Virus record (IMG/VR): IMGVR_UViG_3300037189_015808
Location: 1 to 35,464 of that record
Length of the DNA: 35,464 nt
Origin: a virus
Direction: 5' to 3' (one strand)
Shown here: piece after piece, positions 2,374 to 34,900 of the stretch
Numbering within the stretch: position 1 is the stretch's first letter
How the letters are laid out: each line of letters starts with the position of its first letter
Program-made: the position numbers and the translations under genes
The notes under the pieces: generated by a model
Database searches by the model: none
The model's input: only the letters and a program-made list of their open reading frames with translations
Told to the model about the DNA's origin: nothing

Positions 2374-5300
2374 ATGAGCCGCATGAGCCTGGACACCGCC
2401 ATTCGGCTGTCAGCCGAGGTGAAGGGCGGCGGGAATATCGATCGGGTGAAAAGGTGGCTGCAGGATCTGGGCAAGGCTGCGCAGGTAACCAAGCAGCAGA
2501 AAACAGCGCTGCGCACCGCAACGCTGCAGCTCGCCCGCGCAAATGACGGCACCATTGCCGGGATCAGAACCAGCGTTGCGGCATTGCGCGGGCTGCAGGA
2601 ACAGGCCCGGATCGGCGGCCGGGAGTTTCAGAAGTACGGGGCTGAGATTCAGCGGCTGGAGGGCAAGCTGCGGGGCTTGGATGGCACGGCGAAGGCTGCT
2701 GGCCGTGGCCTGTCCCTCCCTGCAACCCTCCTTGCTGGCGCTGCAGGTGGCGTTGGAGCCGCCGTAGCAATGCAGGCTGCCAACGCAGGCAGAAGCATGG
2801 TGGACGTTGGCTTAGATGCTGAATTGGCCGCAGTCAGGCTGCGCGCGCTTACGAGTGAGTTCGGAGAATACCAAAAAGCACAAGAGGCTACAGCAAGAAT
2901 TGCAAATACTTTAAGAATTAGCAATATTGAAGCCCAGGATAGCTTTGCAAGTCTGTATGCGTCGCTAAGGCCAACTGGCGTAACGCTGGATGAGATCGAA
3001 AAGGCTTTTATAGGCTTTTCCGCAGCAGTAAGGAATAGCGGCGCAACAGCGCAAGAATCAAGCGCTGCACTTATTCAGCTGAAGCAATCTCTAGCGTCTG
3101 GAGTGCTTCAAGGTGAAGAACTGCGGTCAATTCGAGAGCAGGCGCCACTGGTTGCGCAGGCGATTGCCGCTGAAATGGGAGTAACGATAGGATCGCTAAA
3201 GGACTTGGCAGCCGAAGGTAGGATTACAACTGATATTGTTCTAAGAGCACTAAATAAGCTAAATGATACCCAACTGGGCAAGCTAAACGAGCAATTTGAC
3301 ACAGGAAGGCAGGCAATAAAAGATTTTAACGTCGCAGCGCAGGAGCTGGGGATAACACTTGCAAAAGTGTTCGGCCCCACAGCGGTTAGCCTGCTTAGAG
3401 GTTTTACGGATGCAGTAAAAGAAATAAATGCAGCAGCAACTGCATTTAGGAGCCCAACTGCTTACACCGCGCAACAGGTCTTAACCGCCGGAGTGCGGCC
3501 CAAGACGGCAATGAGCCAAGCTGTATTCAATCAAGGTGCAAATGAGTTATTTAAAGGCACCAGTGGAGCGGGAGGCGTCGGAATAACTGGGCTAAGAAGG
3601 GAAGCCGAAGAGCTTGCAAAGATTCGCAGGCAGCCGGTTGACGATGTATTGTTTCAGTTAATGCAGAATCGCTTAAATAGAGTTTCAAGCCAAAATCAGC
3701 CAAGCACTTCTGTTGCTCAGCAGCAAGCCATAGACGCTGCTGCCGCTCAGCGTGCCGCTTCTGCTGCATCGCTTGGATCAGGTGATGCCGCCAAAGCCGC
3801 CGAAAAAGCCGCCAAAGCCGCCGAAGATGCCGGCCGCAAATACGAAGCCGAGCAAATTCGTATGCAGGCCCGCCTTGCAGAAAATCAGCTGCAGACAAAC
3901 GAAGGACTGCAGCGCAATGCAATCGAGCTGGATAATCAGCGATATGAAAACAGCAAAGACTTAGCATTAAAACAGTTTGAATTTACTCAAACTATCCAAT
4001 CAAGGGCGCTCAACCTCTGGAGTGAGGGTCTGATGGGCCCAGCTCGGGCAGCGGCCAAAATGCTCACTGAATTCATGATGGGATTCAGCGAGGGCACCTC
4101 ACGGGTGGCAGAAGCTCAGCGAACCGTGAACGATGCACGCCGCGCACTGCAGCAGGCCGAAACCGTCCACAAGCAAACCTTGGCGAACATGACCGAGCGC
4201 CAGCGGATTGACGTGCTGGACAACAGAGCGCAGGTGATGGGAAGCGCAGGGGGTGGTGCAACGGGCCGGCAAACCCTGATGGGCGTCCCCGGCATCATTG
4301 AATACCTGACTGGCGACAAAAGTTCACCGGGCTACAGGGCTGATCATGGCGGCGCCAATTATCACGAACACATTGCCTTTGCCAGCAGAGCAATCAGGGA
4401 CGACGTTGTCAAAATGCTTCGCCAAAACGGGATTCAGGTTGGCTCGCTGGACCGGCCGGGAGACCGCGGCTATCACGGCAGCGGACAGGCGCTTGACGTG
4501 CCGGCGTCCCAAGTACCAGTCGGCCAAGAAGATGCCCTCGCCAGGCGTGTTCGCGCTTTGGTGTCGGCCCATCTTGGCGGCGCAACCGGCGCCCCACTGC
4601 CAATGTCACAACGGCTACTCCCTGGCGCCGACATGCCAGCGTTTCAACCGCTGGCCCCCGGCGCCAACGCGGCCCTTGTGCGGGACGTGAAGGGAGAGGG
4701 CGACATTGCCCAGGCCCGCGAGCGATTGAAGCAGGCCGAAAAAGAGTTGGCATTGATCAAAGATCAAACTGGCGAACTGCGCAAATTTGATAGAATAGAA
4801 TTTACGCAGAAGCTAACTCAAGGGCTGATTGATCAGAACCAAGAACTGGAAAACAACGCAAAGGAGCTGCAGCTGCGCAACCGCCTAACCATGGAAGGCG
4901 TAAGCAGCAATGTTATTGAAGCCGAGCTACAAAAGGCCAAGATCTATCAAGATCAGGCACTTGTAATTGCTGGGCTGAAAGAAGGCATTGATGCAATCAA
5001 AGACTCCGAAGACAAGGCGGCGGCCCTTGCAGCCTTGGAGAAAATGAATGGCCTATATGCGAGACAAATTGAACTAATCGATCAAGCAGTTGCAGCACAA
5101 TTAGACCAGCCGGCGGCCATTGCATTGCAGATCGGCCAACTTAAAGCCGATCTGGCTGAAATGGTCAGCATTTCTACGCTGGCGGGCCGCATCGCCGATG
5201 GCATTGGCAGCGCGTTCGGCAATGCGTTCCAAGAGCTAATCACCGGCGCTGCCAGTGCGCGAGAGGTGCTGGCCGGATTCTTCCAAGACGTGGCCCAGAA

Positions 5301-20753: not shown

Positions 20754-20945
20754 CTAAGGCGTCGGGATCCCGCGAGAGGCGCACATCATCTCCAGCATCG
20801 CCACCGCCCGCTGACCGCAGTAGCAGCGCACCTCAGTGCCCAGGCCCACCACGACCCAGCAGGCACCACCACGGGCGTCACGCTCCACGGTGATGTAGGG
20901 CGGGGGCTCGCGCTGCACAGACTGAACCAACTGCGTTGCGGACAT
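20754..20945 (-). CDS. Small protein, unknown function
   Basis: 63 residues from ATG (20945-20943): MSATQLVQSV, then PPYITVERDARGGACWVVVG and RCYCGQRAVAMLEMM. The alternation of beta and alpha, two close cysteines and normal composition suggest a real protein. It is oppositely directed to the next gene, and the two start codons share bases at 20943-20946 (CATG), so the two cannot be separated by a promoter of their own. It ends four bases after the phosphoesterase stop (convergent). The frame could extend upstream, but that would bury the neighbour. One of this divergent pair may be non-coding. Confidence 0.5.
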   Translation of the reverse strand: MSATQLVQSVQREPPPYITVERDARGGACWVVVGLGTEVRCYCGQRAVAMLEMMCASRGIPTP

Positions 20946-21225
20946 GCTGGGCCTCGATCTCACCCTCAGCCTGTCGAGCTGTTTCGAGATGGAGCGCGAC
21001 CGCCGCGCCGCCGCGCACATGGGCCGGGACCAGCTGGCAGAGCGCTGCGATGAGCTGATTCAGGCCTGGTATCACCAGCAGCATTTGATCATTGAGCTGC
21101 AGCGCAAGGCGGCCAACCTGCAGGTGGAGCTGGCGCTGAAGGGTGCGCCGGTGCTGGGCGAGCCGACGGGTGAACATCATCAGTGGGCGCGGGAGCTGGG
21201 ACTGGGGCGCCGCTCAGCAGCCTGA
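20944..21225 (+). CDS. Small helical/coiled-coil protein, unknown
   Basis: 93 residues from ATG 20944. It is largely helical with a heptad-like stretch (DELIQAWYHQQHLIIELQRKAANLQVELALKG, about 36-66) and no cysteine cluster or membrane segment. This kind of short coiled coil could be a structural or regulatory accessory. It shares its start region with the opposite-strand gene. It converges on the sigma factor gene, leaving 32 bases between them. Confidence 0.5.
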   Translation: MLGLDLTLSLSSCFEMERDRRAAAHMGRDQLAERCDELIQAWYHQQHLIIELQRKAANLQVELALKGAPVLGEPTGEHHQWARELGLGRRSAA

Positions 21226-21257: not shown

Positions 21258-22319
21258 TCACCAACTCCCGCCACTAACCACCAGCTGCAGCCGCTCCCGC
21301 AGCGCCAGCCAGTTTCGCAAATTGGATCCGCATCTGCGTAAGACAACAGGCTGGGGCTTGACCCTTTCGACTGGTACCAGCACCAGCTGGTCTGGCCGCT
21401 CTCGCTTTCGCCTGGGCCACTTCTTCAGCTCAACCTTTTCCCGCGCCACAGCCACCAGCACCAGCTGCACCGACTCAGCCGCCAGCGATGCCTGCAGCCG
21501 CTCTAGCCGTACCTCCAGAGCCCGTGTGCTCAGGCCCTCCTGCTGGGCCAGTTCTGCGCGGGGGATCTCCACACCGTCGAGGCCCCAGGCCATGCACAGC
21601 AACCGCTGATCCTGCGGCGGCAACCTGGCGATCAGGCCGCGCAGTTGCTCAGCCTGCCGCCAGCGTTCGCGCTCATCATCCTCATCCTCTAGCGACCGGT
21701 CCCACACCGCCACCGTGCTACCAAGCTCCAGCCCGTCATCGGTTACCACTTGGTCGAGCGACCCTATCCCCCGACCGTTTTCGCGCACTGCTGCCAGGAC
21801 CTTCAGGCTGACACCCAGCTCGGTGGCGATCTCGGCTTGCGTTGGCAGTCGACCTAACTCACGCTCTAGTCGTTGCGTGATCGGGCCCAGTTTCGCCAGG
21901 TGCTGGCAGTGGGAACCTGGAATGGCGATCGACCGGCCGTGCCTGTCAACCCATGAGTTGACGCCTTGGCGAATCCACCAGTACCCATAGGTGGAGAACC
22001 GGTAGCCACGGGTCGGGTCGAATCGCTCAGCGGCGGTGATCAGGGCCATGTTGCCCGCCTGGATCAGATCCTCGCGGTCAAACGCTTTGGCCAGCCGGTG
22101 GCAGCGCTTGGCCACGTAGTCGACCACCAGCCGGAGATTGGCGCTCACAAACCGGTCGCGGGCCCGTATGCCCCTGCGCCGAATGCCTGGCGGGCACGGG
22201 TCGGGATGCTGCTGCCATCGCTGGATCGCGGTGCCCAGCTCAATTTCCTCGGCCGGCGTGAGCAGGGGCACCCGGCCGATCGATTCGAGCCACCAGGACT
22301 GTGATGAGCTGGCAGGCAC
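21258..22319 (-). CDS. Phage-encoded RpoD-like (sigma-70 family) sigma factor with C-terminal extension
   Basis: 353 residues from GTG at 22319 (an in-frame stop closely upstream excludes a longer form). Region 1.2 is at about 8-36, with the cyanobacterial signature IGRVPLLTPAEEIELG. Region 2 is at about 54-126 (RFVSANLRLVVDYVAKR, DLIQAGNMALITAAERFD, RGYRFSTYGYWWIRQGV) and includes the -10-binding aromatic residues; HGRSIAIPGSH follows. Region 3 is at about 145-215. Region 4 (about 225-282) is strongly changed: where host sigmas have an SRERVRQIE recognition helix this has STRALEVRLERLQ. A basic 70-residue extension (283-353, KKWPRRKRERPDQ) follows, which I do not recognise. It probably redirects host RNA polymerase to phage promoters. 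Leftward, divergent from the small-gene operon with a perfect dyad between them. Confidence 0.9.
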   Translation of the reverse strand: MPASSSQSWWLESIGRVPLLTPAEEIELGTAIQRWQQHPDPCPPGIRRRGIRARDRFVSANLRLVVDYVAKRCHRLAKAFDREDLIQAGNMALITAAERFDPTRGYRFSTYGYWWIRQGVNSWVDRHGRSIAIPGSHCQHLAKLGPITQRLERELGRLPTQAEIATELGVSLKVLAAVRENGRGIGSLDQVVTDDGLELGSTVAVWDRSLEDEDDERERWRQAEQLRGLIARLPPQDQRLLCMAWGLDGVEIPRAELAQQEGLSTRALEVRLERLQASLAAESVQLVLVAVAREKVELKKWPRRKRERPDQLVLVPVERVKPQPVVLRRCGSNLRNWLALRERLQLVVSGGSW

Positions 22320-22360
22320 CGGGGCGAATGTGACGGATCTGCCTCATCATAGGTGCAAAT

Positions 22361-22375
22361 CCGGTTCCTAACCGG
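22361..22375. promoter_or_regulatory. Perfect dyad CCGGTT-CCT-AACCGG, candidate operator between divergent genes
   Basis: Six-base arms around a three-base centre, in the 85-bp gap between the leftward sigma factor gene (start 22319) and the rightward small-gene operon (start 22405). A further pair of inverted six-mers, GGTGCA at 22352-22357 and TGCACC at 22391-22396, brackets it. A -10-like TAGAGT at 22376-22381 abuts it on the right but without a good -35. AACCG half-sites recur at other control regions of this window. Binding protein unknown. Confidence 0.45.
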
Positions 22376-22404
22376 TAGAGTCCGCAGGTCTGCACCGCTC
22401 GCCT

Positions 22405-24784: not shown

Positions 24785-24945
24785 TGGCCAACCACAGCAC
24801 CCCGCTAACCCTGCGCGATGCACTGCAACAGCGCCTGATCAGCTACGCGGCTGAGGTGCGATCGGGTCACCACCAGGCCCCACCGTCACCGACCGCAGCA
24901 CCGCCGCAAACAGCACCCGTTGCTGTTCAGGTGTCGCGCCATTGA
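24784..24945 (+). CDS. Short ORF running into the recombinase gene, possibly truncated
   Basis: 53 residues beginning MANHSTPLTLRDALQQRLIS, coupled to the previous stop by TGATG. The first 25 residues look like a normal helical protein. The rest is Pro/Ala/Thr-rich and lies antisense to the 3' end of the recombinase gene (overlap 24839-24945), so the natural end of this gene may have been cut off when the recombinase cassette arrived. It could also simply be a short gene. Confidence 0.4.
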   Translation: MANHSTPLTLRDALQQRLISYAAEVRSGHHQAPPSPTAAPPQTAPVAVQVSRH

Positions 24946-26155
24946 AGAACCACGGATCCTGCAGCGCTTCATAGGCAGCAGGATCAATGGCCGGTTGCTC
25001 CACGCGCTGCGCCGTCTCGATTCGCTGCCGCTGCTCCGCCACTGCTGCCGCCATCGCCCGGTTGTCCGGGTTACGGGCCGCCATCCGCTCCATCAGCTCC
25101 AGCTCGCCGCGCATCGCTGCCAGTGCTGGATCTTCTGCTGCTGGTGCGCTCAGCACGGCCGCCAGCCGCCGCGCCTCAGCCACGCACGCCTCGACAACTA
25201 CCGGCAGGATCCGATCCTCCCTGGCACCGCCGCGGGCATCGCAGAGCCGGTGCCGGCACCGCCACCAAGCCACGCCGTTCGACGTGTTTCGCCGCAGCAG
25301 GTGGCCGCAGGATGCGCACCGCAGCAGTCCCGTCAGCCCGTGCCGGGTTTCGGTGGTGCCAGTCCCCTTGAACCGGTTGGTGGGACGCTGCAGCAGTGCT
25401 GCCAGCTCCCGCCAGTCCTGTTCGCTGATCAGTGCTGGGTGCTGGTCGTAGTGGACCTCACCCCACTGCCGGCTCCAGCCCTTGCCACTGGCCTTGTCGA
25501 GCTGGTGGCCGATGTGCCCGCGGATCACCGGATTCACGAACCACGCCTGCAGGTTGGTGGCGGCTGGCGTCCATGCGCACCACTGGGGCATTGAGCGGGC
25601 CACCGCCGCGAACGATCCAAGCCGGCGCAGTTCACGCAACACGCGCAACGCCTGCGGCCAGTGCTCAGGGTGCGGCTTCAGCCGATGGCCTGGCCCGTTC
25701 TGGTAGCCAAAGGGCTTACGTCGCCTGAGGTGCCGGCCCTCGGCGCGGTAGACGGTGAACTGGCGGCGTAGGCGCATCGAGAGCATGCGGGATTCCATCT
25801 CTGCCAGGCCCGTCTGCAGCCTGGCCATCAGGAACCCCTGCGGCGTTGCCGTTTCGATCGCTCCACCATCCAGCGCCCGCACCGTGACGCCTCGCGCCTC
25901 GCACTGGGCCAGTAGGGCGTCGGTGTAGGCCGCGTCACGCCCCAGCCGATCCACACGGGTCACCAGCAGCTCTGAGACCTCGCCGGCCTGCACCATTGCC
26001 ATCAGTTCCAGCAGGCCATCCCGATCCGTGCTGCGGCCTGTCTCGATGTCGGTGATCACACGGCTGCAGCCGGCGGCATGGAGGCGGCTCACCTGGGCAG
26101 GGAGGGCGTCGGCCTGATCGTCCTTGCTGACGCGGGCGTAGCCGATGGCAGCCAT
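24839..26155 (-). CDS. Large serine recombinase (integrase/excisionase type)
   Basis: 438 residues. Residues 1-130 are the resolvase/invertase catalytic domain: Ser10 in YARVSKDDQADAL, the arginines of VTRVDRLGRD (about 66-74), and the long helix ending near 135. Residues about 140-260 form the recombinase DNA-binding domain (RKPFGYQNGPG). A zinc ribbon follows with C280-x2-C283 and C300-x4-C305, and a coiled-coil segment (about 335-385) that in large serine integrases controls direction. Close relatives in cyanobacteria include the XisF type that excises elements. It probably integrates and excises this phage. A 46-bp inverted repeat lies just upstream of its start. It is flanked on both sides by phage genes rather than lying at a prophage end. 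Confidence 0.9.
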   Translation of the reverse strand: MAAIGYARVSKDDQADALPAQVSRLHAAGCSRVITDIETGRSTDRDGLLELMAMVQAGEVSELLVTRVDRLGRDAAYTDALLAQCEARGVTVRALDGGAIETATPQGFLMARLQTGLAEMESRMLSMRLRRQFTVYRAEGRHLRRRKPFGYQNGPGHRLKPHPEHWPQALRVLRELRRLGSFAAVARSMPQWCAWTPAATNLQAWFVNPVIRGHIGHQLDKASGKGWSRQWGEVHYDQHPALISEQDWRELAALLQRPTNRFKGTGTTETRHGLTGLLRCASCGHLLRRNTSNGVAWWRCRHRLCDARGGAREDRILPVVVEACVAEARRLAAVLSAPAAEDPALAAMRGELELMERMAARNPDNRAMAAAVAEQRQRIETAQRVEQPAIDPAAYEALQDPWFFNGATPEQQRVLFAAVLRSVTVGPGGDPIAPQPRS

Positions 26156-28513: not shown

Positions 28514-28569
28514 GGCGGGAATGGTGGATGGGCAGCCAGCGCCGCGCACGGGCTGCTGACCCCCATACC

Positions 28570-28743
28570 CTACCGCATAGGTTCCGGTTTCGCACCTTTC
28601 CATGCCGATGATCTGGTCCACTGCTCACCAGGTCGGACCTCATCCCAGGGGATCAACATGCCGGGGAGCTGCGGACCCCAGCGCACCATGCCGAACGGGT
28701 CGGCGTCGGCTGGGGTTGGTGGGGTGGTGTGCCATTGGGTCAC
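28570..28743 (-). CDS. Small tryptophan-rich protein, unknown
   Basis: 57 residues from GTG 28743, coupled by a GTGA overlap to the gene upstream. Sequence FGMVRWGPQLPGMLIPWDEVRPGEQW, then SSAWKG and a basic end. The neighbour upstream has a similar RYIPWGNGTDW, so both may share a small fold. The frame and composition support a real gene; function unknown. Confidence 0.5.
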   Translation of the reverse strand: MTQWHTTPPTPADADPFGMVRWGPQLPGMLIPWDEVRPGEQWTRSSAWKGAKPEPMR

Positions 28744-31794: not shown

Positions 31795-32069
31795 GCCTCC
31801 ACCTCCGTCACCTTCCGGCGCAGGGTCTGGAGCGACGTGGCGTTCAGGCCGGCACCGTCGAGGGACTGCAACTGATCGGCGATCAGCAGCAGGATCCGTT
31901 CGCGTTCGCGCTCGGCGCCGATGCCAATGCCGATCTCCAGTACAGGCGGGCAGATTTCCTCTGCTGCCTGTGCCAGTTCTCGCTCTCTCTGATCCAGCTC
32001 AGCCAGCCGCAGCTCTGCCTGGATCTCCAGGCAGTCGACGGTCTGGCGCAGGGCGGTGAGGGTTCCCAT
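31791..32069 (-). CDS. Small coiled-coil protein, unknown
   Basis: 92 residues: long helix [20 protein letters not shown], then [25 protein letters not shown] and an end of [13 protein letters not shown]. Classic charged coiled coil that could dimerise. Start overlaps the SSB stop by one base (32069); stop overlaps the next GTG. Could be an SSB-associated or recombination accessory; not recognised. Confidence 0.6.
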
Positions 32070-32509
32070 CAGAACGGAACTCCCTCATCGCTAGCGGGGC
32101 CGTTGCCGAGCCAGTTCTGGGTTGGGGCGGGGGCTGGTGTGTTGGTGGGGGCAGCAGCAGGAGGCGAGGCCGGTGACTCACCGCCAAACCCTTGCTCGCT
32201 GTCCTTCTTGCTGCCCAGCAGCTGGAGGCGGTCGACGCGCACAACAGGCTTGGTGCGCTCCTGGCCAGTGGTGCGGTCGGTCCATTTCTCGATGTGACAC
32301 GAGCCGATCACGCCGATCTGCGAGCCCTTGCGCACGTAGTCAGCGGCTACCTGGGCCTGCTTGCCCCAGATTTCCAGGTTGAACCAGTCGGGGTCTTCGT
32401 CCTTTTTCCGATTCACCGCAAGGGTGAGATTGGCCACCATCGTTCCGCTCTCGAAGTAACGGACTTCGGGATCGCGACCGGCGCGGCCTACAAGTGTGAT
32501 GCAATTCAT
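32069..32509 (-). CDS. ssb: Single-stranded DNA-binding protein
   Basis: 146 residues. OB fold at about 1-105: NCITLVGRAGRDPEVRYFESG, ANLTLAVNRK, DWFNLEIWGKQAQVAADYVRKGSQIGVIG, ending KPVVRVDRLQLLGS. The strand order and GR-G-DPE turn are typical of bacterial SSB. A proline-rich linker leads to the acidic tip DEGVPF, the equivalent of the DDDIPF tip that recruits partner proteins. It would coat phage single strands during replication or recombination together with the exonuclease two genes upstream. A perfect AACCGGTT sits in the gap before its start. Confidence 0.93.
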   Translation of the reverse strand: MNCITLVGRAGRDPEVRYFESGTMVANLTLAVNRKKDEDPDWFNLEIWGKQAQVAADYVRKGSQIGVIGSCHIEKWTDRTTGQERTKPVVRVDRLQLLGSKKDSEQGFGGESPASPPAAAPTNTPAPAPTQNWLGNGPASDEGVPF

Positions 32510-34215: not shown

Positions 34216-34900
34216 AGGTCTCCAGCCGGCGCACCTGGCGGACCATCTCCGCCAGGGCGGCCAGCTCGCTTTCCAACTCCTTATGGCTCAGCGGCTCGCC
34301 CATCAGCAGTTCCTTCAGCCGCGCCTGCCTCACGTTGCTGCTGGCGGGATAGGCCGCCAGGAACTCTCGCAGCGCCTCACGGGGCCCCCATCCCTGCTCT
34401 GCCGCTAGATCATCCAGCAGATCCACCAGTCGCTCATTGGCCCGTTTCGCCTGGGTCTGGGTGAGGTGGCCGCCGACGTAGGGGAGCTCCAGCCGGCCCA
34501 TCAGCAGGTTGGCGAAGTCGCCCAGGTCGAGGGGGCGTGCCGAATCGGAGGGCTTCGGTAGCCAGATCGTGTCGGCCACCCACTCGGGCCTGATGCCGTG
34601 CTCTGAGTACAGCCCAAACTCGCGGATGGCCTCCCGCTCGCTCTGGGTCTGCCATGTCCAGATGGCCCGGTTGGTTTGGGCCAGTGCATCGAGGTGGCGC
34701 AGGCCGGCGCCTCTGGATTGCTTGGCGTTCTTGATTCGGGAGAAACTGCCCCCGTCGAATCCGGTTGTTTCCCCATAAGCCCAATGAACAAGGCTGGCCA
34801 TCCGGTCCTGACTGAGCCCGTGCGCCAGCCAGTACGTGATGGCCGCGGCCAGCTGTTGCACGCCACGTTCCTGGCGCAGATCGGAGGTTTCTTGTTCCAT
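34160..34900 (-). CDS. Putative DNA-binding regulator
   Basis: 246 residues. Residues about 14-62 (QQLAAAITYWLAHGLSQDRMASLVHWAYGE, then GGSFSRIKNAKQSRGAGLRHLDALAQTNRAIW) can be read as a helix-turn-helix of XRE/Cro type followed by a linker. The rest (about 100-246) is helical, with ANLLMGRLELPYVGGHLTQTQAKRANERLVDLLDDL, a possible dimerisation part. Alone in this interval, directly preceded by two overlapping short dyads (34906-34923), it is the best candidate here for the phage repressor. The call is tentative: the HTH is not a clean match. Confidence 0.5.
   Translation of the reverse strand: MEQETSDLRQERGVQQLAAAITYWLAHGLSQDRMASLVHWAYGETTGFDGGSFSRIKNAKQSRGAGLRHLDALAQTNRAIWTWQTQSEREAIREFGLYSEHGIRPEWVADTIWLPKPSDSARPLDLGDFANLLMGRLELPYVGGHLTQTQAKRANERLVDLLDDLAAEQGWGPREALREFLAAYPASSNVRQARLKELLMGEPLSHKELESELAALAEMVRQVRRLETFTPAQLQAELLTDRRLRS

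Follow-up and report, generated by a model that had tools for sequence, protein, structure and literature searches.

A cyanobacterial phage sigma factor without the canonical -35-contact residues may be tethered to the sliding clamp of its host

Introduction

How does a sigma factor direct transcription when none of its residues expected to read the -35 element are kept, and what is the purpose of a long tail attached behind its region 4? These questions are raised by a sigma-70 factor gene of a cyanobacterial virus, located within a stretch of 35,464 nucleotides (IMG/VR record IMGVR_UViG_3300037189_015808), here called the window, which is contained in a 44.7 kb contig (G001, offset 16) of the same phage. 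The initial annotation described a phage sigma factor with intact regions 1.2 and 2, a strongly changed recognition helix that would give a diverged -35 reading, and a novel basic tail that might contact a phage protein or the polymerase core. It also implied that a phage-borne sigma factor of this kind is unusual. That last point does not hold: such sigma factors had already been annotated in the phages S-LBS1, S-CBS1, S-CBS3 and KBS-S-2A. What is new is the content of the tail, namely two QLxL motifs of the type by which proteins bind the bacterial sliding clamp.

Results

The gene and its conserved regions

The open reading frame is a real sigma-70 factor gene (Table 1). Regions 1.2, 2 and 3 score above the curated cut-offs of Pfam, which bears out the annotated integrity of the first two and adds region 3, of which the initial annotation made no mention. 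Region 2 being intact, the protein should still be able to open -10 elements. A match to PHROG 351 (RNA polymerase sigma factor) spans residues 51-279. The best NCBIfam model is TIGR02997 (cyanobacterial RpoD/SigA), with a score of 162 bits that lies below the cut-off of 384.5; regions 1.2 to 3 are homologous to those of the cyanobacterial group-2 sigmas of this family, with about 38% identity. A conserved element that includes a -10-like TATGAT precedes the gene, which fits expression of the sigma factor by the host polymerase before the late genes.

Table 1. Features of the phage sigma factor gene and its upstream element (positions in the window)
Feature	Position	Strand	Basis or remark
Phage sigma-70 factor gene	21258..22319	-	GTG start, 353 aa, coordinates include the stop codon
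Conserved element 5' of the gene, -10-like TATGAT at 22351-22346	22345..22378	-	Kept upstream of the sigma gene in most S-LBS1-like relatives
Region 1.2, residues 12-37	22209..22286	-	Pfam PF00140, E 4.6e-8
Region 2 (-10 recognition and core binding), residues 58-129	21933..22148	-	Pfam PF04542, E 3.5e-15
Region 3, residues 141-203	21711..21899	-	Pfam PF04539, E 2.2e-8
Region 4 helix-turn-helix, residues 254-279	21483..21560	-	Alignment with host sigmas, residue count, AlphaFold2 helices 254-261 and 265-290
Recognition helix STRALEVRLERLQ, residues 264-276	21492-21530	-	Without canonical -35-contact residues
Tail motif 1 QLVLVAV, residues 285-291, candidate clamp-type	21447..21467	-	Conserved in the S-LBS1-like group; QLELF at the equivalent place in L068
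Basic, weakly constrained linker, residues 292-310	21390..21446	-	pN/pS 0.74 across the S-LBS1-like group
Tail motif 2 QLVLVPV, residues 311-317, candidate clamp-type	21369..21389	-	No amino-acid change in the long-tail subgroup; QLSLW in L068, C-terminal QLSLF in L152
Extra 36 residues, 318-353	21261..21368	-	In L006, L008, L010, L016 and L181; missing from short-tail relatives

Region 4

No Pfam model matched region 4, even when residues 230-279 were searched alone at E<=1, and it thus does not score as that of an ordinary host group-2 sigma. An AlphaFold2 model, with 57 relatives as alignment input, predicts domain 4 with good confidence (helices 235-245, 254-261 and 265-290), and Foldseek aligns the predicted structure with sigma-A chains over about 300 columns. 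In an ungapped alignment of the recognition helix, the window protein reads S264-T-R-A-L-E-V270 at the place of S-R-E-R-V-R-Q in the host. The residues of E. coli sigma70 that contact the -35 element, R584, E585, R588 and Q589, define four positions that can be scored; the window sigma retains none of them, whereas 32 of 33 cyanobacterial sigmas retain three or four. The recognition helix is indeed strongly changed, as had been annotated. With respect to the -35 reading the divergence stands, but the sequence suggests that the reading was lost and not that a new specificity was acquired.

The altered helix and the beginning of the tail are common to the whole S-LBS1-like group and are therefore neither a sequencing error nor peculiar to the window phage. 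Read most simply, domain 4 would keep its place on the beta flap and be blind to -35 DNA.

The tail

The tail of the window sigma comprises some 70 residues (283-353) and ends in GGSW. Searches with these residues returned no match in Pfam, PHROG or the PDB, and the reading of the tail as a known domain was rejected on this basis. Frameshift debris was rejected as well, the frame and the motifs being retained in many contigs with synonymous change. A function of the C-termini (..AA, ..VA) as degradation tag was set aside: it would leave the Q-specific motif unexplained, and the window protein ends in GGSW. A tail of this kind is not common in host sigmas, for all 33 cyanobacterial sigmas examined end 4-11 residues beyond region 4 and none has QLxL there. 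The description of the tail as novel and basic is thus correct as far as domain matches and host sigmas are concerned; it has to be amended in that two QLxL motifs flank a divergent basic linker and are followed by 36 extra residues. Throughout the S-LBS1-like group the tail starts with VQLVLVAV and continues with a basic linker of variable sequence, after which come QLxL and a short terminal stretch; the extra residues are an addition of the window sigma and its long-tail relatives.

The published consensus for binding to the beta clamp (DnaN) is Q-L-x-L-F, found mostly at the C-terminus (PMC4549789), and Pol IV carries the variant QLVLGL (PMC3716654). Both motifs of the window sigma match it at Q1, L2 and L4, with V at position 5, and motif 2 ends 36 residues before the C-terminus. 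By sequence, they are candidate motifs of the bacterial clamp type. In the AlphaFold2 model residues 311-338, which include motif 2, are disordered, whereas the helix of region 4 runs on through motif 1; motif 1 may instead pack on the sigma factor or the polymerase.

Tail motifs in related phages

The nearest named homologue is SLBS1_A33, the sigma factor of Synechococcus phage S-LBS1, with 73% identity over residues 5-315. S-LBS1 is a freshwater siphophage with an integrase (PMC6157547). The annotated sigmas of S-CBS1, S-CBS3 and KBS-S-2A are more distant homologues. In all four phages the homologous gene occupies the same place at the late-gene junction, and the open-access papers on these phages offered no mechanism beyond homology. 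The S-LBS1 protein has SVQLVLVAV, then LQLVLVEAP at its end, and differs from the window sigma in missing the last 36 residues; the sigmas of S-CBS1 and S-CBS3 differ in having no QLxL tail.

Scans of IMG/VR yielded 226 loci with a homologous open reading frame, or 71 after clustering at 90% identity. Among these, the full QLxLF consensus is present in the tails of L152, L187 and L068. The sigmas of L152 and L177 terminate in TEQLSLFAA and that of L187 in TQLALFGPLE, while L068 is a contig of a Synechococcaceae metagenome-assembled genome (MAG); its sigma shares 59% identity with the S-LBS1 protein and carries QLELF in place of motif 1 and QLSLW in place of motif 2. Other termini are GQLALPLV (L186), GQLVLPLT (L183), GQLSLLVA (L156), DQLELL (L192), GQLRLL (L236) and LQLPLIP (KBS-S-2A). 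Together these sequences agree with the clamp-binding consensus and the Pol IV variant. In another phage group, the sigmas of L203 and L224 end in QLNLVAS directly after region 4, and L210 has QLNFVAS; L227 is grouped with these. Just upstream of position 3875 in L152, ahead of the QLSLF-tailed sigma, the sequence encodes the end of what may be another sigma, whose region 4 is ordinary (LGVSRERIRQRERRAL); this phage would therefore carry a tandem pair of sigma genes.

QLxL is present in 34 of 68 phage sigma tails, where shuffled tails lead one to expect 1.9 (maximum 7 in 5000 shuffles). At 60% identity the count is 10 of 38 tails against 0.85 expected (maximum 6), and the motif persists among phage sigmas of about 40% identity. 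It lies within the last 16 residues of 27 of the 71 sigmas and of none of 252 other open reading frames from six related phage genomes; for the last 40 residues the numbers are 32 of 71 and 3 of 252. Since QLxL was noticed before it was counted, the shuffles control for composition and not for the choice of pattern. Better guards against the latter are the specificity for Q, the match to a consensus already in the literature and the fact that relatives carry canonical variants.

The distribution of the motif was compared with a sigma tree from which region 4 and the tail were left out; the tree was computed quickly, and several of its branches are long. On it the motif characterises two groups, a large and deep clade and, apart from this, the clade of KBS-S-2A. 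In the latter it is combined with an ordinary region 4, and the two traits are thus not strictly linked. Motif and degenerate region 4 are correlated (p 0.0003 at 90% identity, 0.02 at 60%), an association that is suggestive and inseparable from ancestry because the tree holds only three independent pairs.

Candidate clamps

No DnaN domain or family A polymerase was detected in 17 related phage records and no PCNA domain in 14, several of the records being fragmentary; the positive controls were detected in these searches. A search for clamps of the gp45 type was uninformative, as its controls gave no match. In the S-LBS1 record, which was submitted as a full genome, the annotations include a primase-polymerase, helicases and a single-stranded DNA-binding protein (SSB) and no clamp. 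Because neither DnaN nor PCNA turned up in the phage records and S-LBS1 lists no clamp, the sliding clamp of the host (DnaN) is the likely partner of the tail. With clamp-type QLxL motifs in the tail, we judge it a likelier partner than the phage protein or polymerase core suggested initially. In the UmuC proteins of six picocyanobacterial host genomes, the place aligned with QLNLF of E. coli reads QHHLL; Q1 and L4 are kept, and the sequence offers no yardstick for the preference of the clamp at positions 2 and 5.

Genome context

The window encodes a large serine recombinase (24839-26155, minus strand) with resolvase, recombinase and zinc-ribbon domains and a PHROG integrase match, and the phage is therefore probably temperate. 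Its single-stranded DNA-binding protein (32069-32509, minus strand) scores above the cut-off of NF005674 (PRK07459) and for that reason looks cellular. A gene for a small helical protein (20944-21225, plus strand) is convergent to the sigma gene in the window phage as in S-LBS1, S-CBS1 and KBS-S-2A; in L002, L003 and L004 it lies just 3' of the sigma gene. The protein was considered as NblA-like or gp33-like, and no family match was obtained in Pfam or PHROG.

An operator-like repeat, approximately TACCGC.TAGGTTCCGGTT.TGCACC, is found upstream of the sigma gene (22345-22378, minus strand) and at about 28557-28606 (plus strand). Copies elsewhere in the early region lie near 4517, 7201, 12545 and 19745 in contig G005 and near 4818, 10215 and 15282 in G006. 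They occur with or without a -10-like sequence behind them and may be bound by a repressor or another regulator of the phage.

A candidate iteron-type origin adjoins the start of the late genes, immediately upstream of them (43163-43850 in G001, 34236-34641 in S-LBS1 (L055) and 35030-35582 in G007). The long intergenic region at this place, flanked by the primase-polymerase gene and the terminase side, contains phage-specific short repeats that resemble the iterons of a replication origin (GGTTGGCAAG/TTGCTAACC; CTGCCTAACC; GTAACA/GTTACG), and part of it is repeated in the S-LBS1 record. Word counts in the late intergenic gaps gave coding-like words only and nothing convincing as late promoters.

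Discussion

A possible link between late transcription and replication

The combination of an intact region 2, a domain 4 without -35-contact residues and a tail with clamp-type motifs recalls the late transcription of phage T4. There, gp55 consists of a domain homologous to sigma region 2 that a divergent linker connects with a clamp motif at the C-terminus (PMC2988020), whereas gp33 binds both the flap and the clamp, and the clamp activates promoter opening (PMC2988020, PMC7892883). Moreover, fusions of gp55 and gp33 function even when the clamp motif is internal (PMC2988020). The phage sigma would share with gp55 the layout of a sigma region 2 joined via a divergent linker to a clamp-binding motif, and the independence of -35 reading. 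With its region 2, a domain 4 that would bind the flap without reading -35 DNA, and candidate clamp motifs in the tail, it would resemble such a fusion. There are differences as well. T4 gp55 has no regions 3 and 4 and gp33 is a separate protein, whereas the phage sigma has a predicted domain 4 in one chain; the gp45 clamp is encoded by T4, whereas no DnaN or PCNA gene was found in the phage records searched; and the candidate clamp motifs of the phage sigma are of the bacterial beta type and not of the T4 type. The best explanation, by analogy, would be a sigma factor that works like gp55/gp33 while standing outside that family.

The use of the host clamp by way of a short motif is in itself known. 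Pol II, Pol IV, UmuC, Hda and the transposases of IS elements carry clamp motifs, and mobile elements reach the host clamp in this way (PMC4549789, PMC3716654). Like the tail motifs, these are short Q-L-x-L-hydrophobic sequences, mostly C-terminal and located on a flexible segment, but the proteins are polymerases, replication regulators and transposases and not sigma factors. Among the open-access titles and abstracts listed for sigma factors and clamp binding, the T4 system alone surfaced, and no sigma factor that works through the bacterial clamp was seen to be described; an earlier description elsewhere is possible.

We therefore propose, with moderate confidence, that the -35-blind phage sigma is tethered to the host sliding clamp and couples late transcription to replication. 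Regions 1.2 to 3 would place the protein on the host RNA polymerase and open -10 elements, and domain 4 would retain its fold and sit on the beta flap without reading -35 DNA. The QLxL motifs of the tail would occupy the hydrophobic cleft of the host DnaN, which replication would put on the DNA. In this way the holoenzyme would be kept on replicating phage DNA and the clamp would substitute for the missing -35 contact, so that the late genes would fire once the phage genome is being copied. The parts of this proposal differ in strength. That the tail binds a clamp is quite probable in view of the motifs; that the clamp activates late transcription via the phage sigma we put only a little above an even chance, the use of DnaN at late promoters being inferred from the analogy with T4.

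Alternative explanations

The tail might bind the host clamp for another purpose: it could bring polymerase to replication forks for general transcription of replicated DNA, keep transcription from colliding with replication, or displace host users of the clamp by competition and so slow down host replication. This explanation draws on the same motif evidence, and the KBS-S-2A clade, with its ordinary region 4, should have no need of a clamp to replace -35 contacts. However, it would be strange to build a clamp inhibitor into a sigma factor, and the -35 residues have been lost in most of the motif-bearing clade, which fits activation. On balance we regard such another purpose as fairly unlikely.

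Alternatively, the motifs could be hydrophobic peptides that do not bind a clamp at all and serve the host RNA polymerase, another phage protein or the sigma factor itself, for instance by replacing lost contacts of domain 4. The predicted continuation of the domain 4 helix into motif 1 agrees with this, as does the lack of F at position 5 in the window; in addition, VQLVLVAV is conserved along its full length and not only at Q, L and L. On the other hand, position 1 is specific for Q, which occupies it in 34 tails while no other residue exceeds 5, and relatives carry the canonical QLSLF, QLALF and QLELF. A tail without affinity for the clamp is thus unlikely.

Finally, the phage might simply have copied a group-2 sigma of its host, with a rebuilt -35 specificity and a functionless tail. 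In favour of this, the best NCBIfam matches are cyanobacterial RpoD/SigA models, and the altered helix might recognise a different sequence. It nevertheless seems highly improbable: the score remains far under the family cut-off, motif 2 shows synonymous differences (pS 0.31) and no change of amino acid among the long-tail sigmas, and the motif recurs among sigmas of about 40% identity.

Conclusions

Until now, replication-coupled late transcription through a sliding clamp has been known from phages of the T4 type, and these have a clamp of their own. We see about an even chance that small siphophages unrelated to T4 tether a -35-blind sigma to the host DnaN and so couple late transcription to replication, and they may have come to this arrangement repeatedly, since the tail motif marks two separate clades on the tree. 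The involvement of the host clamp can be tested with purified DnaN, the tail peptide and cyanobacterial RNA polymerase. If true, the coupling would be a wider phage strategy that extends, via the host DnaN, to small phages without a clamp gene; a part of the host replication machinery would double as a transcription activator, and the cyanophage sigma genes that were annotated by homology alone would gain a function.
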